Part shown: positions 39,982 to 63,922 of the stretch, piece after piece
How the letters are laid out: the number at the start of each line of letters is the position of its first letter
How positions within the stretch are numbered: position 1 is the first letter of the stretch
Source: an uncultured Burkholderiales bacterium
GTDB lineage: Bacteria > Pseudomonadota > Gammaproteobacteria > Burkholderiales > Burkholderiaceae_C
Assembly (NCBI GenBank): GCA_903871545.1
Contig: CAIQHG010000012.1
Span: forward strand, 1 to 64,000
Direction: 5' to 3'
DNA: 64,000 nucleotides
Position numbers and translations under genes: made by a program
Notes under the pieces: model-generated
Databases searched by the model: none
Told to the model about the DNA's origin: nothing
Seen by the model: the letters and a program-made list of their open reading frames with translations, nothing else

Positions 39982-40767
39982 TTATCTGCTTTGATTGCGA
40001 TCGCGCCCCAACGTAAACCCTGCGTCCACTTTTATAACTTGTCCAGTTACAACTGAATCGGGATCAGACAGCCAAAAAGCGGCCCCAGCGATATCTTGCG
40101 GCCTACAGATTTTCCCAAGGGCAGCTAAATCAATAAAATCTTTTTTAACTCTGTTGTATGAGTCTTCCCCAAGTCCGTCTAGCATCCACTTGCCCTCAAT
40201 CATCCCCGGCATAACAGCGTTCACTCTTATTTTAGGTGCCAAGGACCTTGCTAAACTTACTGTTAATATATTTAAAGCAGATTTTGAGAGCACATAAGGA
40301 TAAGAGCTGCCACGACCAGTTTCACCAGCGATGGAGGAAATGTTGACAATGGAGCCAGCCTCTTTCATGAATTTACTGACCGCTCTGGCCATTAAAAAAG
40401 GGCCTACAGCGTTTACAGAATAAATTTTCAAAAAATCTTCCGCCTGCACATCATCTAATTGGGTCAACGGAATGAACTGGGTCGCTCCTGCACTGTTGAC
40501 TAAAACATCAATTCGACCCCAAGCATCATTAGCGGCTTTAGCGACCTCTTGGCACCCTTCATTTGAGGAGACATCAGCGCAAATTGCAGTGCTTTCTACG
40601 CCGTAAGATTTACAAATTTCAACAACCTCCTCAGCCCTTTTTTTACTTCGGTTGTAATTTATTAAAACGTGATATCCACGGCTTGCAAAAAATTCTGCCG
40701 TTGCAGCGCCTACGTCACCTGCCCCCCCAGTCACTATAGCCACTTTTTGATTTTGCACCTTATTCAT
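39982..40767 (-). CDS. SDR family oxidoreductase
   Basis: AIVTGGAGDVGAATAEFFASRG, VNSAGATQF, YPYVLSKSAL, GQVIKVDAGF. Confidence 0.9.
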   Translation of the reverse strand: MNKVQNQKVAIVTGGAGDVGAATAEFFASRGYHVLINYNRSKKRAEEVVEICKSYGVESTAICADVSSNEGCQEVAKAANDAWGRIDVLVNSAGATQFIPLTQLDDVQAEDFLKIYSVNAVGPFLMARAVSKFMKEAGSIVNISSIAGETGRGSSYPYVLSKSALNILTVSLARSLAPKIRVNAVMPGMIEGKWMLDGLGEDSYNRVKKDFIDLAALGKICRPQDIAGAAFWLSDPDSVVTGQVIKVDAGFTLGRDRNQSR

Positions 40768-40782
40768 GATTTCTCCTCCAAC

Positions 40783-41256
40783 TTAAACCTTGGAACTGAA
40801 GTACTGCCTGACAATCGATTCAGCAACGCAGGCTGGTTTTTCTTGATTTTCCACCTCTATCGTGACGGTGAATATCATTTGCAAACCACCCTCAATAAGT
40901 TCAAGCGCTGATAAATGAAATTGACCTCTTACACGACTATTAACTTTTACTGGACTAATAAAACGAACCTTATTTAGTCCGTAATTAATACCCATTTGGC
41001 AAAAGGGGAGTGACAGCTTTTCATCATAGAACTTTCCAAGTAACGAAAGGGTTAAAAAACCGTGTGCAATCGTACTCCCGAATGGAGACTCCCTAGCAGC
41101 CCGCTCATGGTCAATGTGAATCCACTGTGGATCGCTCGTTGCCTCTGCAAACTGATCTATTCTCTTTTGATCAACTAACACCCAATCTGAGGTGAACGCA
41201 TGAGCCCCTACAACACTTTGTAGGGCCTCCAATGTTGGAAATGATAGTTGACTCAT
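40783..41256 (-). CDS. MaoC-like (R)-specific enoyl-CoA hydratase/dehydratase family
   Basis: QFAEATSDPQWIHIDHERAARESPFGSTIAHGFLTLSLL. Confidence 0.9.
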   Translation of the reverse strand: MSQLSFPTLEALQSVVGAHAFTSDWVLVDQKRIDQFAEATSDPQWIHIDHERAARESPFGSTIAHGFLTLSLLGKFYDEKLSLPFCQMGINYGLNKVRFISPVKVNSRVRGQFHLSALELIEGGLQMIFTVTIEVENQEKPACVAESIVRQYFSSKV

Positions 41257-41268
41257 ATTAGACTTACC

Positions 41269-42885
41269 TCAAGCAGTAAAGGGCGTAATTTTGTTTCTCA
41301 AATCTCGCTTTAAGAGTTTACCGTTTGCATTTCTAGGGAGCAACTCTTTAGAGATAGAAAATGATTCTGGTACCTTGTAATCAGCGAGGTGCTGAGCACA
41401 AAATTCCTTCAAAGTTGATTCTTTAACTAGTTCTCCTTTTAAAGTTATAAAGGCGTGCACTCTCTCCCCCAACACAGGACAAGGTTTTGAGACCACAGCG
41501 CACTCTAAAACACTTGGGTGCTGATAAAGTACATTCTCTACCTCAATCGTGTAAATCTTGTAGCCGCCCCTGTTGATCATGTCTTTTATACGGTCTACGA
41601 CTTTTAAATAACCCTTCTCATCAATTGAGCCTAAGTCTCCGGAACGCCAAAAGCCACCCACAAAGTTAGTGCGTGTGGCCTCTAGATTGTCCCAATACCC
41701 CTTCACAACCATGGGGCCTTTAATCCAAATTTCACCCAACTCCCCCACGGCGAGTTCTCGCCCCTGTGAGTCCATAGTTCGAATTTCAACACACGGCAGC
41801 GCCTGGCCAACGCTATCTAAGTGGCGAAGGGTCTCACCCTTTGGCATCAAGGTGGAGGGAGAAGTTGTCTCAGTAGAGCCGTAGCAGTTGAGCAAAATTA
41901 ATTTTGGAATTTTGCCGACTAATTGCTCAATCGTTGCAACTGGCATCGGCGCTCCACCAAAAGCGCCAACGCGCCAATTTGATAGATCGGTCTTCTCAAA
42001 TAACGGATCCAACAAACACAAGTTGTACATAGCTGGAACCATTAACGTATAGGTCATAGCGTGAACCTGGGCAAGGCTAATAAAATGAGCCGCCTTAAAA
42101 TTGGGCATGATTACTAATTTGGCACCAGCCATGATTACACATGTAATCAGCGCAACTACACCCGTGACATGACTTAGAGGTACGGTTGCGATGGCACAAT
42201 CTGTATGACTCAAATTAAAACTAAATTTGTAATGCATTGAGGAGTGAACCAACCCAAAGTGGCTAAGCATTGCTCCCTTGGGAAGACCCGTGGTGCCAGA
42301 GGTATACAAAATGATGGCGGTATCCTCCTCATCGCAGGCAAAAGGGGTAAATGCTGCGTGTTGCGCTTCATTATTATCAATTTCAATCCAATCAGCATAA
42401 GACTGCGAGGACTCGCAAGTTTGGATTGACAATTTAAATCTTAAGCTAGGAGCCTCTTCTTGAGTAGGCAATAGTTGAGCCAAGTTAGATTCATGTATCA
42501 CCATTGAAGCTTTACTGTGTGTGAGCGCGAATTTAATTCCTGTTTTTTGTTCCCTTACACTGAGTGGTACACAAATAGCTCCGATTGCGGTAATGGCAAA
42601 CAAGGCTACGACAAATTCAATTCTATTGTTAAGTAGCAAAGCGATTCGATCGCCTGGCTTGATCCCCTCTAAAGACATTCTTTGAGCTAAAAGGGATGAA
42701 TCACGCCGTAACTCTGAATAACTTAATTGACTTTCCTCGCAAACCAAAGCAATTCCATGAGGGTTAATTTCACATGCTTTTTCAAGCAACTGATAAAGAG
42801 TTTGTGCTCTTTTTTCAAAACATTTAACTACCCTATCTCCAAAATGTGATTCAACGCGGATTCTGGGCCACTCAGTTGGATTCAT
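41269..42885 (-). CDS. Acyl-CoA synthetase (AMP-forming)
   Basis: AIILYTSGTTGLPKGAMLSH, NCYGSTETTSPS, GGYKIYTIEVENVLYQHP, NANGKLLKRDLR. Confidence 0.93.
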   Translation of the reverse strand: MNPTEWPRIRVESHFGDRVVKCFEKRAQTLYQLLEKACEINPHGIALVCEESQLSYSELRRDSSLLAQRMSLEGIKPGDRIALLLNNRIEFVVALFAITAIGAICVPLSVREQKTGIKFALTHSKASMVIHESNLAQLLPTQEEAPSLRFKLSIQTCESSQSYADWIEIDNNEAQHAAFTPFACDEEDTAIILYTSGTTGLPKGAMLSHFGLVHSSMHYKFSFNLSHTDCAIATVPLSHVTGVVALITCVIMAGAKLVIMPNFKAAHFISLAQVHAMTYTLMVPAMYNLCLLDPLFEKTDLSNWRVGAFGGAPMPVATIEQLVGKIPKLILLNCYGSTETTSPSTLMPKGETLRHLDSVGQALPCVEIRTMDSQGRELAVGELGEIWIKGPMVVKGYWDNLEATRTNFVGGFWRSGDLGSIDEKGYLKVVDRIKDMINRGGYKIYTIEVENVLYQHPSVLECAVVSKPCPVLGERVHAFITLKGELVKESTLKEFCAQHLADYKVPESFSISKELLPRNANGKLLKRDLRNKITPFTA

Positions 42886-43213
42886 TAAGAGGCACTCCCA
42901 TATTAGTAATTAAGAGTTCATGATCTAGCAGCAACCAAATTGCTGCTTTTTGCCAATGTAGGCCTGCGTGCATTGAGGCATACACACCTCCAGGTAAGGC
43001 AGTTGGGAAAACAAATTTCAAAGCATTAAGCCCCTCTAGCTCATACCTTATAACCTCTGTTGTTAGAAGCGGACTCACCAACTCTTTGACCACCATTGGG
43101 GTAAGTTGTGCGTATAGTAATTTGTAATGTTCAGGCGTTTCGCTCACAAGGGTCAGATCTAAAATATCACCCTTATCCCCTGATCGCCCTGTAGCAATAT
43201 CTCCAACTCTCAT
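42872..43213 (-). CDS. AtuA-like ferredoxin-fold domain protein
   Basis: ATGRSGDKGDILDLTLV motif; 4-nt overlap with the AtuA-family gene. Confidence 0.75.
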   Translation of the reverse strand: MRVGDIATGRSGDKGDILDLTLVSETPEHYKLLYAQLTPMVVKELVSPLLTTEVIRYELEGLNALKFVFPTALPGGVYASMHAGLHWQKAAIWLLLDHELLITNMGVPLNESN

Positions 43214-44553
43214 GACTCACTCCAAATCAATTCAGCTTGGATCCATTTTTGCTCTATGTATCCATCTAAGACCTCAATGCGCGCTCTTTTCTCAGAGCGA
43301 ACACTGCATCCACCTGCTGGACCTGACAAAGTCAATGCATACACCTCATCCTCTACGCTTTGAGCGGCGAATGAGTCATCGCAAACAGCAGATATATGAA
43401 CCCTTACCTCCACCGGTTCTGCTGTCAAATCACGTGAGCACTGGCCTAAGACGGAATTAACACCTACCAAATCTATTTGGGCCTCAATACCAAGCCAGTT
43501 GCTTACTCTACGGCGCAACACGTCGCTAGCAAATTGTGCACGCATTAAAGCCCCAGTGCCCGCATATCCGATTTCAATGTCAACTGTGAAACCGGGGTGC
43601 TCCACAAATCCGGCAACCTTCAGCGTGGGTGGAGCCCCTTTAGAGCAAGCTCCGTACAACATGATTTGATTTGACGCGGTCTGCTCAAACCTTACATTTG
43701 AGAAATCAAGTATTAAATCTGGAGTGATGTAATGCGCAGGGTTATGTACCTCGTAAAGCAATTGTAAAGTGCAGGTGAGCTTGTCAACAATTCCAGGCAA
43801 ACCAGGGACAAGGCTAATTTGCGCATGCCCATCTTTAAATATCTTTGCAAGAGGATACCCCAATGCAGCATACTCCTGCGCGCTCAAAGGGGGTGGCTTT
43901 GTATTCCCAGCAATCGGCTCGTAATTACCGCCCGTCAATTGCCCCCCGCATTCAAGCAAATGCCCAACCGTTAACGCACCGGCTAATGCATCACCTTCAT
44001 TATCCAAATGGGCAAGCGCAGGCGCAGCAAAAATAGCAGAATCTGCAACTCGGCCCGTTACAACCACATCAGCGCCTTCTTCAAGTGCCTTAGACATCAT
44101 TTTGCATCCCAAATAAGCATGTGCGCCAAGTAAATTAGCTTGACCGTCAATGGGTTTGTTCCATTTGATGTGCTGAGTTAAACCCATCACATCATCACCA
44201 ATCATCCCAGCGATTCGACGTTTTTTATAGCCAAGTTCATTTGCCAGACGGGCTATTTCCTCACCAGCGCAGGCCGGATTAGCCGCACCAAGATTTGAGA
44301 TGATGCGGCAGTTTTTTTGAAAGGCCTCTGGGAGTAGAGGCGTCAAACGAGTTCGCAGGCGAGGATCAAAGCCTTTTTTTGAATTCTCTTTTCGCAACTT
44401 GATCGCTGGGACTAATGTCCTCTCAGCCAAGCACTCCAGTCCTAGTGAGTCTATGAGCCCTGATTTAACAAGTGCCACAGCTGGGTCAACTCTATCGCCT
44501 GCGAAGCCAGCCCCAGAGCCTATACAGGTTATGGGTTTTTGGGATTCATTCAT
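43210..44553 (-). CDS. Acyclic terpene utilisation AtuA family (DUF1446) protein
   Basis: CIGSGAGFAGDRVDPAVALVKSGLIDSLGLECLAERTL, DVVVTGRVADSAIFAAPALAHL, CGGQLTGGNY. Confidence 0.85.
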   Translation of the reverse strand: MNESQKPITCIGSGAGFAGDRVDPAVALVKSGLIDSLGLECLAERTLVPAIKLRKENSKKGFDPRLRTRLTPLLPEAFQKNCRIISNLGAANPACAGEEIARLANELGYKKRRIAGMIGDDVMGLTQHIKWNKPIDGQANLLGAHAYLGCKMMSKALEEGADVVVTGRVADSAIFAAPALAHLDNEGDALAGALTVGHLLECGGQLTGGNYEPIAGNTKPPPLSAQEYAALGYPLAKIFKDGHAQISLVPGLPGIVDKLTCTLQLLYEVHNPAHYITPDLILDFSNVRFEQTASNQIMLYGACSKGAPPTLKVAGFVEHPGFTVDIEIGYAGTGALMRAQFASDVLRRRVSNWLGIEAQIDLVGVNSVLGQCSRDLTAEPVEVRVHISAVCDDSFAAQSVEDEVYALTLSGPAGGCSVRSEKRARIEVLDGYIEQKWIQAELIWSES

Positions 44554-44556
44554 GAT

Positions 44557-45273
44557 TTATAAACCCATATAAGAGCGTTGGATATCGGCGTCGATTAAGA
44601 GCTCTTTAGATGCTCCGCTTTTTCGGATCTGGCCTTGCTCAAGAACGTAACCTCTTTCAGATAAATCAAGTGCGTTACCCACATTTTGTTCAACCAATAG
44701 GATTGAAACTTTTTTAGTTTTCACCAACTGTTTTATCAATTCAAATATTTTCCCAACCATGATAGGGGCTAACCCAAGAGAGGGCTCATCCAACATAAGG
44801 AGTTTAGGGTTCGCCATCATTGCGCGTGCAACCGCGCACATTTGACGCTCTCCTCCTGACAAACGTCCTGCCAACTGATGGCTGCGGTCTGCAAATAAGG
44901 GAAACAATTCAAATACTTCCTCCAACTTACGTTTCATATCATGTCGTGCAGTGGAATGATAAGCACCTAGCTGAAGGTTTTCTAAAACAGTCATGAAGGG
45001 GAAAAGACGCCCCCCCTCCGGTATTAGAACCAATCCCTTAGCAGGACAATCGTGCGCTGGCACATTCGCAATGGATTGATTCTCAAATCTAATCTGCCCA
45101 GCATTTATTGAAAGATGTCCCGCGATGGTCAATAAAAGAGTACTCTTCCCCGCCCCATTTGCGCCTACAACTGAGACTATCTCGCCTTCGCCCACATACA
45201 AGTTAATGTCTCTCAAGACTGTAAACTGACCGTAACCTGAGCTAAGGTTATCGACTCTTAGGATCTTTTCCAT
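44557..45273 (-). CDS. livF: LIV-type ABC transporter ATP-binding protein LivF (second copy)
   Basis: [46 protein letters not shown] 45273 preferred. Confidence 0.9.
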   Translation of the reverse strand: MEKILRVDNLSSGYGQFTVLRDINLYVGEGEIVSVVGANGAGKSTLLLTIAGHLSINAGQIRFENQSIANVPAHDCPAKGLVLIPEGGRLFPFMTVLENLQLGAYHSTARHDMKRKLEEVFELFPLFADRSHQLAGRLSGGERQMCAVARAMMANPKLLMLDEPSLGLAPIMVGKIFELIKQLVKTKKVSILLVEQNVGNALDLSERGYVLEQGQIRKSGASKELLIDADIQRSYMGL

Positions 45274-46019
45274 TTGTGTCCCTCCCCCAGATATGCAGTG
45301 ATTACTTTGGGTGAATTTAATATCTCGCTGGCCGAGCCTTGAGCAATCAAGCACCCTCGATCCAAAACAATTACTCTTTGGGAAAAAGCTCTAACAACTT
45401 TTAAATTGTGTTCAATAATTAAAAATGTCTGTCCCTCAGAGTGCAATTGATTCAAAAGATCAATAGATTGAGACACCTCGCTTTGGTTTAGTCCTGCCAT
45501 TACCTCATCAAGCAACATAATTTGAGGATCCAAAGCCAACGCTCTTGCAACCTCTAGGCGTCTTCTTTGACTGAGCGTTAAATCCCCTGCCTTAACAGGT
45601 GCAAGTTGCAAAAGGCCTACTTTTCTAAGTAAAGAGATCGCTTTTTCCTTTGCCCGCTCCATGTTTGATTCGCGCATGAAAGCGCCAATCATGACGTTTT
45701 CCAATACATTGAGTGCAATCAAAGGTTTTGAGATTTGAAATGTTCTCCCCATTCCAAGTCGAGCTCTCTCGTGCGCACCTAAGCTATTGATGGTCTTGCC
45801 ATCAAAATTAATCTGTCCATGGGTGGGTTGCAATTGCCCGGTTAGTAAATTAAAAAAAGTCGTTTTACCCGCCCCATTGGGACCAATAATACTAACAATT
45901 TCACCCTTACTCACTGACAAGCTGACACTGTCTACTGCTTTTAAACCAAGAAACTGCTTAGTCACATCTTGCACTAGTAGCAAAGGCGAAGGCGCGCTTA
46001 AATCTTGCGAAGTTTCCAT
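45258..46019 (-). CDS. livG: LIV-type ABC transporter ATP-binding protein LivG (second copy)
   Basis: GPNGAGKTTFFNLLTG, LSQRRRLEVARALALDPQIMLLDEVMAGLN. Confidence 0.9.
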   Translation of the reverse strand: METSQDLSAPSPLLLVQDVTKQFLGLKAVDSVSLSVSKGEIVSIIGPNGAGKTTFFNLLTGQLQPTHGQINFDGKTINSLGAHERARLGMGRTFQISKPLIALNVLENVMIGAFMRESNMERAKEKAISLLRKVGLLQLAPVKAGDLTLSQRRRLEVARALALDPQIMLLDEVMAGLNQSEVSQSIDLLNQLHSEGQTFLIIEHNLKVVRAFSQRVIVLDRGCLIAQGSASEILNSPKVITAYLGEGHKWKRS

Positions 46020-56154: not shown

Positions 56155-58005
56155 TTAGCTTTGTGCGCTTGCCTGCGACGCCTTGGCCCTGGGGTTTGAG
56201 AATTGATTTTTCAGTTCATTAAGACTGTGCTTTCTCTTGTCCAACAGCGCCGCTCTTTTGGTCGCGCTCGCTTGTCGGTCCAATCGGTAAGTCCTGTGCC
56301 CTGCCCCCTCAGCATCACCCGCAGAGTCAGGCGCAGGTGCAATAACTACACCGTATTTCTCAAGGGCCGAAGACTCGTTGATGTAGCCGCGGTTCAAGTC
56401 CAACTGGACGCTGTCTAAATCGCGCTCGAGGGGGTCACCAAAGCCACCCCCGCCCGGGGAGGCAGCACGCAAAGAGTCGCCTGGTTTGAGAAGTTGTTTT
56501 TCTTCCTTACTTCTGAAGTGAGGAATCCACTTTTTACCCTGGGTCTCGAACTCAACATGGCTCGGGGACGCTGGTCCACCTCCTTGAACGCCAAAGGGGG
56601 CGTAATCCACTCGATCACCCAACACGGATACAACGCACTCTGACCATGCAGTGAAACCGTAAGAGGTCCCGCATCCGCCCCTGTGCCAACCCGCTCCGCC
56701 TGAGTTCTCCCTGAGCGCAAAGTAATCAAACCTTAATGGAAATCGATGCTCGCACATCTCTAGGGACATAAAATTAGCCATCGACTGGGGCGGGTTTCCG
56801 TTGACTAAACCATCACTCGCCTTTGAAGCGCCGTACCCCCCTGGGTAAGGAAATACTCCGACAAAATAATTGTTGCTGCGTGGGTGGGTGCCGCTTACGG
56901 TCACAACCCCAGTTGTTCCAAAAAAGGCAGCCGGAGCTTTGTCTGGAATGATTTGAGACATAGCCCCAAAAATCAAATCTATGACACGGCCCACCCCTTC
57001 AAGGTATCCCCCGACAGGGGCAGGGTACTGGGCGGACAAAACCGTTTTATCGGGGAGCGTAAAGTGAATCGGCCTAAACGTTCCTCCGTTCACTGGGACG
57101 TCGGGGAAGATGTGCTTGATGGCCACATAACTTGTCGATAAAGTCGTGTTACTCGACATATTCAAAGGACCCTTTGCGGTGGCACCTGTGCCCGTGAAAT
57201 CAAAATGCATTTCATCGCCTTTGACGGTAATCTTTAACCTAATAGGAATAGGTTGATCTGTGATTCCGTCGTTGTCAAAGAAATCTTCATAGGCGTATTC
57301 CCCGTCTTTGAGCTCTTCAATATAAGAGCGCATTTGACGCTCTGAGTACTCAATCATCTCATTTAAGCACGTGGAAAGTACAGCCCTGCCATAGCGTTTA
57401 ACCAAAGTCTCTATTCCACGGGTACCCACACTAAACACGTTTGCCATCGCAGACAAGTCGCCTGAGATTTCTTTGGGCAATCTGACGTTTGCGGTAAACA
57501 TACTAACTAGCGCCGTGTTTAGTTTGCCAGCTTCATAGAGTTTGACCGGGGGAATGATGATCCCCTCTTGGTGGATCTCTGTAGCTTTGGGCGCCCACCC
57601 ACCCGGGACATTTCCACCAATATCCATCCAGTGACCTGTGGTTGCCATCACTGCAAAGAGTTCGTTGTCTACAAAAACGGGGGCAATCAACTGAACATCT
57701 TGAAGATGGCTCCCGCCAATGTAGGGATCGTTCAAAATCCACATATCGCCTGGTTTAAAGCCCCCCTCTAGCCGGGCTTTTTCAATGACATGTTGAACAG
57801 TAAACTGCATATAGGCTAAGAAGACAGGTAAACCGTACCTGCCCTGTGCAATGGTCTCCCCCGTTGTAGGATGAAAAATACCGTTTGCACAATCATTGGT
57901 CTCTGAGATGATGGGGGAGATGGCTGCATGTATTAAATGCAGATCCATCTCATCTGCTATTTGCTCTAAACTACCCCTGACGACGGCTAAAGTTACTGGA
58001 TCCAT
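56155..58005 (-). CDS. hyuB: Hydantoinase B/5-oxoprolinase family subunit HyuB
   Basis: DPVTLAVVRGSLEQIADEM, ILNDPYIGGSHLQDVQLIAPVF, HRGGCGTSYGF, SPGGGGFGDPLERD. Confidence 0.9.
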   Translation of the reverse strand: MDPVTLAVVRGSLEQIADEMDLHLIHAAISPIISETNDCANGIFHPTTGETIAQGRYGLPVFLAYMQFTVQHVIEKARLEGGFKPGDMWILNDPYIGGSHLQDVQLIAPVFVDNELFAVMATTGHWMDIGGNVPGGWAPKATEIHQEGIIIPPVKLYEAGKLNTALVSMFTANVRLPKEISGDLSAMANVFSVGTRGIETLVKRYGRAVLSTCLNEMIEYSERQMRSYIEELKDGEYAYEDFFDNDGITDQPIPIRLKITVKGDEMHFDFTGTGATAKGPLNMSSNTTLSTSYVAIKHIFPDVPVNGGTFRPIHFTLPDKTVLSAQYPAPVGGYLEGVGRVIDLIFGAMSQIIPDKAPAAFFGTTGVVTVSGTHPRSNNYFVGVFPYPGGYGASKASDGLVNGNPPQSMANFMSLEMCEHRFPLRFDYFALRENSGGAGWHRGGCGTSYGFTAWSECVVSVLGDRVDYAPFGVQGGGPASPSHVEFETQGKKWIPHFRSKEEKQLLKPGDSLRAASPGGGGFGDPLERDLDSVQLDLNRGYINESSALEKYGVVIAPAPDSAGDAEGAGHRTYRLDRQASATKRAALLDKRKHSLNELKNQFSNPRAKASQASAQS

Positions 58006-60029
58006 TATTTCAACCTTATCAATAAATTATTAAAAGAATCGACTTTAAGGGTCATATCTGGTTCAACCACGGTTGTGGTGTCTAGTTGCTCAATGATGGC
58101 TGGGCCATGAAGCGTCATTCCTGGCCTTAAGCTGGTGCGGGCGTAAATAGGCGTATCCATCCAGGCACCAAAATAAACGGGACGCTTACTTTTGATCTCA
58201 AGCTCTGAGGAAGTGTTTACACTTGGAGCGCGTTTTTGTTCTGCCGAGCTGGTTCTGAGTCCAATCGCAATGGTTCTCAAATGAACAATCACGATAGCAA
58301 TATCTTTTAAAGTGTTCCCAAACTGAGCGCTATAGGCGTCGTTAAAAGCTTGTTGCATCTGCTTTGGACTCCACCCCTTTTCAATCTCAACTCTGATTGA
58401 GTGAATTTGTCCGGTGTAGGCCATATCAGCCGCGTGTGTAATGCGAACCTCATCCACAGGCACTTGACTGTTTACGATTTGATCGTGAGCCTGCTTTATT
58501 TGCTGCTCAATGATTTGCGTGAGCTGCGCCTCAGGAATTAGATCCAGTCTTTTCTCAACAGTTTGAGAAATATCGTATCTTAAATCTGCGTACGCACAAC
58601 CCAGCGCACACAGCACGCCCGGGTACTCAGGAACCAACATCGTGCTGATGCCGACCTCCCTGATAAGGGCCCCGCCGTGAAGCGGTCCTGCACCCCCAAA
58701 GGCAACCATTGCAAAATCCCTTGGGTCTAATCCCCGCTCGATTGACATCAAGCGGATACGACCCGACATGCGTTGATTAACCACGGCCAATATAGCCTCG
58801 GCCATTTGCTCCATAGTGAGATTTAGTTTGGCGCCCATCTCCCTCACAGCTTTCTTGGCACCCTCTACATCAAGACGAGCATTCTGTCCATTCATTAAAC
58901 TTTCCGGATTTATTCGTCCGAGCACTACGTTTGCATCCGTGACCGTTGGCTCTGTACCGCCTCTTTTAAAAGCAACTGGACCCGGCACCGCCCCAGCACT
59001 CCTGGGACCTACCTGCAGCATTCCCCCACGGTCAAGAAAAGCAATACTTCCTCCCCCTGCGCCAATCGTATGAACATCAATCATGGGCAAACGAAGCGGA
59101 ATCCTAAAATCCAGATTGGTCATTTCAGCAATTTTTGGTTGGCCGTTGATTACAACAGCCACATCAAAGCTTGTACCCCCCATGTCTGCAGTGATGATGT
59201 GTGAAAAGCCGGCTTGAGTGGCTAAACGAGCTGAGGCGGTAACCCCCGCCGCTGGCCCTGAGCGAACAATGTAGGCCGCTCGTTCAGCCAATTGCTTTAG
59301 GGGAGCAACGCCGCCGTTTGACTGCATGATGGCAACCTCACGGTTAAAGCCCCAGTGGTTTAAACGTTCAGCTAAATTTTTGGCATATTTAGACACCAAG
59401 GGCTGAAGAAATCCTTGAACTACAGCGGTGCTTGTTCGCTCAAATTCATAGTACTCCCTGACCACAGAAGTAGAGGTCACAACCTCCCAAGAGGAATTGA
59501 TTTCATTTAATATTTCCTGCGCTCTGAGCTCGTGAATGGGGTTTGCATAGGAATGCATAAAGGCAATCACAACAGACTGAACACCGCTCAGCTTTAAGGT
59601 CTCGGCCAAGACCTTTAAAGCCTTCTCATCTAGAGGCTCAAGCACTTTGCCCTCATAATCCAACCGCTCTTGGATTTCGAAGCGAAGTTCCCGAGGAATC
59701 AACGGTTCATGCGTTCCCTCAAGACCATACATATTGGGTCTGTCGCGTCTACCCAACTCTAAAAGATCTCTAAAACCACGAGTCGTGATAAGTGCGCAGC
59801 GTGCGCCTTTTCGCTCAATTATGGCGTTCGTTGCAATGGTCGTTCCATGCAAAATGGCGTTTAATTCGTCAGGACTTATATTTGCATTTTTTAAAGAATC
59901 CAACAACCCAACTGAAGGATCATGAGGGGTTGAGGGAACTTTTAATATTAAATGTGGCCGAGTTGAACTGCCAGAAAAATAGAGATCTGTAAAAGTACCC
60001 CCCACATCTATACCGACAATTGCATTCAT
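58005..60029 (-). CDS. hyuA: Hydantoinase A/5-oxoprolinase family subunit HyuA
   Basis: VGIDVGGTFTDLYFSG, HGTTIATNAIIERKGA, TADMGGTSFDVAVV, FGGAGPLHGGAL; 1-nt overlap with hyuB. Confidence 0.92.
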   Translation of the reverse strand: MNAIVGIDVGGTFTDLYFSGSSTRPHLILKVPSTPHDPSVGLLDSLKNANISPDELNAILHGTTIATNAIIERKGARCALITTRGFRDLLELGRRDRPNMYGLEGTHEPLIPRELRFEIQERLDYEGKVLEPLDEKALKVLAETLKLSGVQSVVIAFMHSYANPIHELRAQEILNEINSSWEVVTSTSVVREYYEFERTSTAVVQGFLQPLVSKYAKNLAERLNHWGFNREVAIMQSNGGVAPLKQLAERAAYIVRSGPAAGVTASARLATQAGFSHIITADMGGTSFDVAVVINGQPKIAEMTNLDFRIPLRLPMIDVHTIGAGGGSIAFLDRGGMLQVGPRSAGAVPGPVAFKRGGTEPTVTDANVVLGRINPESLMNGQNARLDVEGAKKAVREMGAKLNLTMEQMAEAILAVVNQRMSGRIRLMSIERGLDPRDFAMVAFGGAGPLHGGALIREVGISTMLVPEYPGVLCALGCAYADLRYDISQTVEKRLDLIPEAQLTQIIEQQIKQAHDQIVNSQVPVDEVRITHAADMAYTGQIHSIRVEIEKGWSPKQMQQAFNDAYSAQFGNTLKDIAIVIVHLRTIAIGLRTSSAEQKRAPSVNTSSELEIKSKRPVYFGAWMDTPIYARTSLRPGMTLHGPAIIEQLDTTTVVEPDMTLKVDSFNNLLIRLK

Positions 60030-60056: not shown

Positions 60057-60791
60057 TTATTTGGTTTGCATTTGGTTTACATTTGGTTTGCCAATCTCCT
60101 CAACACTTGTGATGTAAGCTGAGACGTGTTGGCTCATTCTTCTAAATGCCGACTCAGGGTTGGCCGATTCAATGGCCGTTATCACGCGCTGGTGAGCAAT
60201 TTCAACTGCTTTTCTTATTTCAATTGAATTGAAGTCAGTTACGTCTGTTGATTCATAAAATGATTTTGAAATAGCTGTCATAAATGCAATCAAGAGTTCG
60301 TTATGACTTGCTTTAACAACCTGTAAATGCCAAACCAAATTTGCTTTCAAAAATGCAGGAATATCCTCCCCCGATTCTTTTAAATTTGCATGTGCTTTCT
60401 TTAATTCTTGCAAATCCTCATTCGATCGATTTTGCGCAGCAAGTCGTGCAGCATGAGGCTCAATTGCCTCTCTTACCTCTGAGACGGCTTGCATCCTAAT
60501 TCCCTGGCCTTTGATAAAGATATCAATAGATTTTTCTATGCCTATGCTTGAGGGCTTAATCACCTCTGAGCCACCTTTTCTGCCGGTTCGTATGGCGATC
60601 AACCCCTCACCCTCTAATATTCTCAAAGCCTCTCTGACCGAGGTTCTAGAGATGCTGGCACGCTCTGAGAGCTCTCGCTCATTGGGCAACAACATTCCCT
60701 CGGGCAAAGAACCCGTTAATATTTGAGTGCGCAGGTTTAGAGCTAAATAGTCTGCCGCTTTGGGGATTAAAACTTTACTGATCTGGACCAT
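60057..60791 (-). CDS. GntR-family transcriptional regulator (FadR/FCD-like)
   Basis: LPNERELSERASISRTSVREALRILEGEGLIAIRTGRKGGSEV then FCD-like helical domain. Confidence 0.92.
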   Translation of the reverse strand: MVQISKVLIPKAADYLALNLRTQILTGSLPEGMLLPNERELSERASISRTSVREALRILEGEGLIAIRTGRKGGSEVIKPSSIGIEKSIDIFIKGQGIRMQAVSEVREAIEPHAARLAAQNRSNEDLQELKKAHANLKESGEDIPAFLKANLVWHLQVVKASHNELLIAFMTAISKSFYESTDVTDFNSIEIRKAVEIAHQRVITAIESANPESAFRRMSQHVSAYITSVEEIGKPNVNQMQTK

Positions 60792-60954: not shown

Positions 60955-62613
60955 ATGACTTACCCTAATATTGATAAAGATACTAACCAATCCGTTCATT
61001 TTTGGCGAATTAATGGGATAGCCCACATTCGGTTTAACCGTCCTAAAAGCTTAAACAGCATCAACATTGAGCTTGCCCAGGGGTTCTTGCTAGCTTGCAA
61101 GACCATTGAAGATGACCCATTGGTTAGGGTTGTAATCGTTAGCTCAGAGGGTAAAAATTTTATGGCCGGCGGGGACCTCCAAGCTATGAAAGCGGATCCG
61201 GTCTCAATTTCCAAAAACTTAATTAAACACATGCATTCAGCCATCATGATTTTAGATGGCCTTGGAGCTCCCGTCATCGCAAGCGTTCAAGGCGCATGCG
61301 CAGGCGGTGGTCTCGGCGTTGCTGTGGCCTGTGATTGGATTGTTGCCTCCGATAACGCACGCTTTAATTTTGCATATACAAGCATAGGAGCAAGCCCGGA
61401 TTGCTCAACATCGTGGGGTTTGCCAAGGTCTGTTGGCACAAGAAAAGCATTAGAGTTGGCAATGCTTTGTGAAACAGTTAATGCAGATGAAGCTTTAAAG
61501 ATCGGGCTAATTAATCAAATAATTCCAAACGAGAATTTACAAGAAGTTACGCTCAAGATCGCCGAAAAATTAGAGCATTGCGCACCTCAAGCCCTTAGAA
61601 GAATAAAAAGACTGATCAAAGACTCAACCCTTACTGGTTTAACCCAGCATCTAACGGCAGAGGCAAAAAACTTTCTCGAGTGCGCATCAGGCAGTGATTT
61701 CACGGAAGGCGTAAGCGCATTTTTTGAAAAGCGTACACCCAACTTTAAAGGCGCTGAGGTTGAGCCTAAAGATCCCATGCTCGCTAAAATGCTTCTGGAG
61801 ATTGAGAGGAATGACTCCCCCATCCACACCTTTAAACTAAACGAGCAATTGGCAGTTATCAGCATTCATTCACCCAAAAAAATGAATGCTCTTAATACCA
61901 ATTCAATGACTGAACTGCGACAACAGATCGCAAAATTAAACGATGACCCCAGCGTGAGAGTCATTATTTTAAGAGGGCATGCAGGAAACTTCTGCACTGG
62001 CCTTGATTTGAAATCTTTGTTGGATGAAAATCAAAATTACAACCTAAGCGTTCACCAAGCATATGAGCTTCAAAAGTGCTTTGAGGGCTCTGTTCGTGCA
62101 TTAAGGCAATCTACTAAGATAATTATTGCGGCTGTCGACGGGGTTGCGGTTGGTGCTGGATTTGCCCTAAGCCTTGCAGCAGATATTCGTTTTGCATCAC
62201 AGACCGCGAGCTTTCACATCGGCGCTGTCAAAATGGGACTCTCAGCAGGTGAGTGCGGTATCAGCTATCACCTCCCCAAGTTAATCGGGGCTGCAAGAGC
62301 GTTTGAGGTCATGCTCACGGGGCGGGCAATTGAGGCCAGTGAGGCTCTGGGTATTGGGTTGATAGCGGACATTGTGCCCTCCACTCATTTAATGAGCAGA
62401 GCAATTCAATGTGCGAATGATATTTTGAGCAACAGTCCTTACAGTACCCAGGAGACTAAAAAAATTATGTGGACTAACCTAAACGCACCCTCTTTAGAGT
62501 CAGCGCTTGAGCTGGAAAATCACACACAGGTTCAAGCTTTAATGACCAAAGATTTCGCAGAAGCTGCAAAAGCTTTTGCACAAAAGCGCGCACCCCTTTT
62601 TATAGGAAAATAG
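60955..62613 (+). CDS. Tandem-fused double enoyl-CoA hydratase/isomerase (two crotonase domains)
   Basis: Two oxyanion-hole segments (SVQGACAGGGLGVAVACDW; AVDGVAVGAGFALSLAADIRFA) and two crotonase C-terminal signatures (FFEKRTPNFKG; FAQKRAPLFIGK) in one ORF. Confidence 0.92.
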   Translation: MTYPNIDKDTNQSVHFWRINGIAHIRFNRPKSLNSINIELAQGFLLACKTIEDDPLVRVVIVSSEGKNFMAGGDLQAMKADPVSISKNLIKHMHSAIMILDGLGAPVIASVQGACAGGGLGVAVACDWIVASDNARFNFAYTSIGASPDCSTSWGLPRSVGTRKALELAMLCETVNADEALKIGLINQIIPNENLQEVTLKIAEKLEHCAPQALRRIKRLIKDSTLTGLTQHLTAEAKNFLECASGSDFTEGVSAFFEKRTPNFKGAEVEPKDPMLAKMLLEIERNDSPIHTFKLNEQLAVISIHSPKKMNALNTNSMTELRQQIAKLNDDPSVRVIILRGHAGNFCTGLDLKSLLDENQNYNLSVHQAYELQKCFEGSVRALRQSTKIIIAAVDGVAVGAGFALSLAADIRFASQTASFHIGAVKMGLSAGECGISYHLPKLIGAARAFEVMLTGRAIEASEALGIGLIADIVPSTHLMSRAIQCANDILSNSPYSTQETKKIMWTNLNAPSLESALELENHTQVQALMTKDFAEAAKAFAQKRAPLFIGK

Positions 62614-62617
62614 TTAG

Positions 62618-63922
62618 ATGACTTTAGGGGCGATAAAAAAAGTGGCAATCATCGGTGCAGGTGCTGCAGGTATTTGTGCAGCTAAGCACTTAGCCGCTGC
62701 GGGCCAAGAGGTCATCATCTTTGAGATGGGCAGCAAAATCGGTGGATTATGGGTATACGAAAACGACAACGGCATGAGTCCAGCTTATAAGTCCTTGCAC
62801 GTCAACTCGGAGAATAAGGTTACAGCTTATAAAGATTTCCCCTTCAAGGAAAGCGCTCCTATCTACCCCGATCACTCGCAAATGGTAGAGTATCTGAATG
62901 ATTATGCCAATCATTTTGGAATTACTCAGCTTATCCGCTTTAAAGCCGTCGTCACAAACGTACTTCCAGATCAAGACCAACGTTGGAGAGTAACGCTTGC
63001 TGACGGAACACAAACTCTATTTGACGCGGTCGTTGTAGCTACAGGTCACCAAGGAGTTCCCAAGCACCCAAATTTTCGGGATCAATTTTCTGGGGAATAC
63101 TTACACTCCCAAGCCTATAAAGTACCCGAACCCTTTAGAGATAAAAATATCTTAGTTGTTGGTATCGGCAACAGTGCTTGCGATATTGCATCCGATGTTT
63201 GTTCCGTAGCCAAATCAGTTACTGTTGCCGTTCGCTCTCCCGTTTTGCTGATGCCGCGTATGTTCCTAGGAGTGCCCACCTCCAGGGTTCTTGGTAAATT
63301 AGAGAAACCTTGGATGCCCTGGATTATGAAGCGGTGGTTGAGGACCTGGATTTCAAGACTTGCATTTGGAACCATGGAGCAATGGGGGCTAAAAACACCA
63401 AAAACCCGCACTCACCCAGCAGGACATCACTTGCTTATGGGGCATATGATTTGGGAGCGAATCAAAGCAAAGCCCGGCATTAAAAATGTGCACAAACAAG
63501 ATGTGTATTTTGAGGATGGGTCTTGTCAGAAATTTGATGTCATGATTGCAGCCACTGGCTACTCCTTATCGCTCCCATTTCTAAATACAGAGAACTCCCC
63601 CATTACGCATCCTTATTTAGATCTCTTTCACCGGGTCGTCAGCCCCAAACACAAAGGGCTTTACTTTGTAGGTTTTTTTAATGTAAGTGGAGGTGGCAAC
63701 ATAAGAATGATGGATGACCAAGCAGAGTGGGTCACTGAGCTCATAGCCCAGAAACAAGGTTTACCCAATCAAAGTGTGATGACAAAAGCTATTCAAGAAG
63801 AGAGAGATTACATTCAAAAATATTACCCTAACAGCGAGCGATACGGCTTGGAGTTAGATCCCGCCAAGTACAGGAGCGAGTTGTTGAAGCAACGACTAAA
63901 TTACAAAAAAGTATTAAGCTAG
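62618..63922 (+). CDS. Flavin-containing monooxygenase
   Basis: VAIIGAGAAGICAAKHL (GxGxxG), FSGEYLHSQAY (FxGxxxHxxxY), VVGIGNSACDIA, ATGY. Confidence 0.9.
   Translation: MTLGAIKKVAIIGAGAAGICAAKHLAAAGQEVIIFEMGSKIGGLWVYENDNGMSPAYKSLHVNSENKVTAYKDFPFKESAPIYPDHSQMVEYLNDYANHFGITQLIRFKAVVTNVLPDQDQRWRVTLADGTQTLFDAVVVATGHQGVPKHPNFRDQFSGEYLHSQAYKVPEPFRDKNILVVGIGNSACDIASDVCSVAKSVTVAVRSPVLLMPRMFLGVPTSRVLGKLEKPWMPWIMKRWLRTWISRLAFGTMEQWGLKTPKTRTHPAGHHLLMGHMIWERIKAKPGIKNVHKQDVYFEDGSCQKFDVMIAATGYSLSLPFLNTENSPITHPYLDLFHRVVSPKHKGLYFVGFFNVSGGGNIRMMDDQAEWVTELIAQKQGLPNQSVMTKAIQEERDYIQKYYPNSERYGLELDPAKYRSELLKQRLNYKKVLS

Follow-up and report, generated by a model that had tools for sequence, protein, structure and literature searches.

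A double-crotonase gene in an uncultured Burkholderiales bacterium, probably a recent fusion of two neighbouring isomerase-type crotonase genes

The window, a stretch of 64,000 nucleotides from an uncultured freshwater Burkholderiales bacterium, contains an intact gene that encodes two different crotonase domains in a single chain. The gene most likely represents a recent, lineage-specific fusion of two neighbouring isomerase-type crotonase genes of one pathway, a reading given a probability of roughly 55%. Neither half of the product appears to be catalytically empty; as judged from sequence, both look like single-acid isomerase-type crotonases, because each carries an invariant acid at the position of Asp136 in PaaG. 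The gene and its parts are as follows.

60955..62613, + strand: fused double-crotonase gene, 552 aa, intact open reading frame matched twice by ECH_1
61012..61752, + strand: domain 1, residues about 20-266, PaaG-like, apparently single-acid crotonase
61399..61401, + strand: D149 codon, proposed catalytic acid of domain 1, aligned with PaaG Asp136
61753..61809, + strand: linker AEVEPKDPMLAKMLLEIER, residues 267-285, at the place of the intergenic region in relatives
61755..61757, + strand: TGA, out of frame, probably what is left of the domain-1 stop (by-eye comparison with L061-L064, L066 and L071)
61811..61813, + strand: ATG, out of frame and preceded by a ribosome-binding-like site, probably what is left of the domain-2 start
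61840..62607, + strand: domain 2, residues about 296-551, EchA19/3sll/5e0n-like crotonase with the motif AGECGISYHLP
62251..62253, + strand: E433 codon, proposed catalytic acid of domain 2

The open reading frame runs from ATG to TAG with no internal stops. Pfam ECH_1 (PF00378) matches the whole protein in two stretches (382.4 bits against a curated cut-off of 27, E=1.2e-114), the best covering residues 20-266, and single-domain crotonase structures match each half with E-values of about 1e-42 to 1e-45. The original prediction of a 552-aa protein with two fused crotonase domains is thereby borne out, as is its view that the domains are not a recent duplication. The halves share only about 27% mutual identity and fall in different clades, both of which include single-domain relatives of their own, so that a recent internal duplication is ruled out by both the tree and the identities. 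Domain 1 (60955-61752) stands on a long branch in the tree and is unusual in composition, though most of the invariant positions it has lost carry conservative changes. Two AlphaFold models were made, each informed on one half, because a full-length MAFFT alignment had placed domain-1 relatives on domain 2. The models confirm the crotonase fold of each half (TM-scores near 0.85-0.9 by target length against single crotonase structures), with mediocre mean pLDDT values of 68.2 and 66.8, poorly modelled active-site loops, and a relative placement of the halves that is not fixed.

Genome searches covered the genus (84 genomes), the order (399), the family (401) and the nearest relatives (101), overlapping sets that amount to roughly 900 genomes, with the three best candidates per genome scored for the order and family. 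Single-domain orthologues of each half occur in these relatives. Domain-1 relatives are 43-53% identical, separately encoded domain-1 orthologues about 47-53%, and separate domain-2 orthologues about 50-60%. The other double-crotonase fusions that the original prediction had suggested seeking were found neither in the roughly 900 genomes nor among 51 loci recovered by scanning the GTDB species collection with domain-2 motifs; what the search returned was the separate orthologues. A scan of the same collection with the single protein as query gave no confirmed matches, and a phrase search of the literature found no fused crotonases. One apparent fused homologue, in G607 (match 13-551), proved to be two separate adjacent crotonase genes. 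That a second genome with the fusion was not found in the searched genomes and the 51 loci counts against the preferred reading.

In 13 of the 51 loci a second crotonase gene directly adjoins the domain-2 gene on the same strand, always in a different frame. The neighbour is the domain-1 orthologue in six Comamonadaceae MAGs (L061-L064, L066 and L071). In the other seven loci (L081, L083, L084, L086, L104, L105 and L108), four of them from Variovorax, two from Frankia and one from Mycolicibacterium, it is a different crotonase, and the tandem genes are never fused. The six MAGs have an F-x-G-R-stop ending on the first gene and a good ribosome site ahead of the second, and likely remnants of both signals can be recognized at the window junction. 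Insertion of a single base into codon 266 would yield F-K-G-R-stop, with the TGA at 61755-61757 and the G-R-stop ending of the six relatives. The ATG at 61811 has an SD energy of -6.4, against -5.8 to -8.0 at the domain-2 starts of relatives; the in-frame ATGs at 61777 and 61789 have energies of -2.7 and 0. One extra base in the run of five C at 61817-61821 would place ATG 61811 in frame with domain 2, and the restored start would give MTPPIHTF, close to the MTTPCLTL of L066. Remnants as well preserved as these point either to joining in the very recent past or to a slip in sequencing, which also weighs against the preferred reading. The reading favored here is that the fusion would have arisen recently, by small deletions between neighbouring genes.

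The slip is the core of the best-surviving alternative, considered rather unlikely, in which the pair are really two adjacent or overlapping genes, with a base missing from the contig or an unfixed frameshift in the strain. It accords with the separate adjacent genes of the six relatives, with an out-of-frame stop, ribosome site and ATG as good as those of the relatives, and with a fusion seen in no other searched genome. Recovery of the exact layout of the relatives, however, requires two distinct single-base changes, at sites about 65 nt from one another. In addition, no frameshift-like cases were found in 12.6 kb of contig coding sequence compared with relatives, and the crotonase matches of the same genome are without obvious frame break. 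The possibility of a joining error, raised in the original prediction, is countered by a reading frame that is open across the entire linker and kept partly alive by the close relatives, in which the two genes lie next to each other unfused, and by a junction that resembles the outcome of small deletions.

Alignment with the canonical enoyl-CoA hydratase (ECH) of the same genome, which reads GGGCELAM ... FGQPEINLG, places G121 and Y141 of domain 1 and A404 and A424 of domain 2 in the columns of rat ECH Glu144 and Glu164. Neither domain has the Glu pair of a canonical hydratase, as had been proposed by eye, and no intact catalytic Glu that would point to a standard ECH is kept in either. A third acid position that is well known in crotonases, the PaaG Asp136 site, had been overlooked. 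In domain 1, D149 lines up with Asp136 of Thermus thermophilus PaaG (structure 3hrx), and in domain 2 the corresponding place is taken by E433; D149 is invariant in all 13 aligned domain-1 sequences and E433 in all 12 aligned domain-2 sequences. Both halves therefore carry the acid of a PaaG-type single-acid isomerase, in which Asp136 is catalytic and shuttles a proton between C2 and C4 (PMC7497051). Domain 1 keeps 48 of 55 positions invariant among its relatives and domain 2 keeps 47 of 51, so both halves look constrained. With the PaaG-type acid invariant in each half, the earlier suggestion that loss of the Glu pair leaves the chemistry open-ended is not supported, and the isomerase-like role put forward alongside it is plausible.

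Crotonases of the hydrolytic, MenB/BadI and 4-chlorobenzoyl-CoA dehalogenase types carry an acid in the same loop, and this service of one acid position to several chemistries counts against the preferred reading. Accordingly, D149 and E433 could instead act in hydrolysis, in C-C cleavage or formation (MenB/BadI type) or in nucleophilic catalysis (4-chlorobenzoyl-CoA dehalogenase type), an explanation judged unlikely. The nearest NCBIfam model to domain 1 alone is a hydrolase family, NF046063 (oxepin-CoA hydrolase, alternative type; 186.4 bits, cut-off 300), and the 4-chlorobenzoyl-CoA dehalogenase structure 1nzy is among the domain-1 matches, but PaaG scores far above 1nzy for this domain (134.7 versus 90.4 bits). 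The whole chain reaches 333 against NF046063, which is not a pass because the score only sums two domains and the cut-off is 300 bits per protein. Domain 2 alone lies nearest EchA19 (NF051848; 188.2 bits, cut-off 400), and the PaaG model TIGR02280 gives 159.3 for domain 1 and 141.3 for domain 2, below its cut-off of 345.15. Among the matches listed for the separately scored halves, neither half reaches any curated family cut-off, that of the hydrolase family included.

The precedents for the fused pair are the double crotonase domains of BoxC and the trimer stack of PaaF-PaaG. BoxC is likewise a protein of about 550 aa with two crotonase domains per chain and a place in CoA-dependent catabolism. 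In contrast to BoxC, the fused protein is without the Glu pair and keeps an acid in both halves. Identity with BoxC is ruled out by score, as the halves reach 28.7 and 24.2 bits against the BoxC model TIGR03222, whose cut-off is 712.3 over 548 positions. A true BoxC is encoded elsewhere in the same genome (G000:C48:38500-40146, L053; 922.7 bits). Because BoxC has its active centre in the N-terminal crotonase domain only (PMC4498308), and domain 1 has a long branch, a similar division into one catalytic and one purely structural half might be envisaged, but it is very unlikely given that the acid and most invariant positions are kept in both halves and that each half occurs alone as a gene elsewhere.

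PaaG (1,2-epoxyphenylacetyl-CoA/Delta3,Delta2-enoyl-CoA isomerase; 3hrx, 6sl9) is matched by domain 1 along the whole domain, and its structures (3hrx, 6sl9-6slb) are among the closest solved for that domain; in domain 2 the place of Asp136 is taken by Glu. Unlike PaaG, the fusion falls below the TIGR02280 cut-off, lies in another operon and is fused. The PaaF-PaaG complex (4fzw) similarly keeps together two different crotonases of one pathway, although as a non-covalent stack of trimers in which PaaF has the Glu pair (PMC4498308). By analogy, this complex would be the nearest experimental counterpart for the question of channelling, and its authors called tunnelling unlikely, with active sites that face solvent and lie far apart (PMC4498308). 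The closest solved relatives of domain 2 are the mycobacterial enoyl-CoA hydratase/isomerase structures 5e0n and 3sll, which have the Glu loop in common (LTASELGLSYLLPR) and, unlike the fusion, are single-domain. Set beside these enzymes, the fused pair is a modest variation on known ones.

The operon context in the window comprises the following.

39982..45354, operon to 49348, - strand: remaining shared operon, with SDR, MaoC, CoA ligase, AtuA ferredoxin-like, AtuA and LivF-type ABC ATPase genes
60057..60791, - strand: GntR/FCD regulator, divergent from the fused gene
62618..63922, + strand: FMO-like flavin monooxygenase, starting 4 nt past the stop of the fused gene and probably co-transcribed with it

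In the six freshwater Comamonadaceae MAGs the adjacent, separate and out-of-frame domain-1 and domain-2 genes end a catabolic operon that includes AtuA, CoA ligase, MaoC, SDR and APH-like kinase. The order in L061, L062, L064 and L071 includes ABC subunits, AtuA, CoA ligase, MaoC, an alcohol-dehydrogenase-like MDR, SDR, domain 1 and domain 2. An APH-like kinase lies before domain 1 in L062 and L066; in L064 an unlabelled ORF, comparable in size and location, is probably one too. Orthologues of the window operon genes (39982..45354) accompany the domain-1 and domain-2 genes in relatives. In G828 the halves are separate genes of one operon, around an NMO-like protein and a CoA ligase and followed by MaoC, while in G020 and G035 the domain-2 gene lies between an SDR gene and an orthologue (56-58%) of the GntR/FCD regulator. 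Two further features of the window are an AtuA family protein with a separate AtuA ferredoxin-like partner within the Liv-ABC/CoA-ligase operon (42872-44553), and a hydantoinase A/B-like pair, recognized by eye, beside the GntR regulator and an acyl-CoA dehydrogenase (56155-60029).

The APH-like kinase (PF01636), which shares its fold with LvaA and with the kinase domains of ACAD10/11, recurs near domain-1 and domain-2 genes (L062:6897-7961, L066:2-817, L067:2209-3234, L070:5694-6731 and L011:3-488). A levulinate-type (LvaA/ACAD10-11) pathway is suggested by this neighbour of the relatives; it is only an idea, since the 64-kb window has no APH-like kinase and the genome's best homologues sit on other contigs.

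Under the preferred reading of a recent fusion, small deletions would have removed the stop of the first gene and brought the second into frame. Each half would most likely be a single-acid CoA isomerase-type crotonase. By alignment with PaaG, a pair of backbone NH groups in each half may hold the thioester enolate (G73 and G118 in domain 1, L350 and A401 in domain 2). One acid per half (D149, E433) would serve, like Asp136 of PaaG, to move a proton between C2 and C4 in an unsaturated acyl-CoA substrate. The halves probably handle consecutive or alternative intermediates in breakdown of the same acid, in which the presumed steps would be those of CoA ligase, SDR, APH-like kinase or ACAD, double-bond shift, MaoC hydration and thiolase. 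As other crotonases do, each half would form trimers in the oligomer. The fullest version of this proposal, in which two different single-acid CoA isomerases are covalently joined, retain remnants of their recent fusion and perform consecutive double-bond shifts in an undescribed AtuA/APH-kinase pathway of freshwater Comamonadaceae, is quite unlikely to be correct in every part.

A genuine fusion would single out two uncharacterised crotonase families as partners in one pathway, and would be a clear case of genes joined through small deletions where two members of an operon meet. Should the joining prove to be an error, the recurrent adjacency of both separate genes with the AtuA/CoA ligase/MaoC/APH-like kinase operon still defines an apparently undescribed catabolic module.
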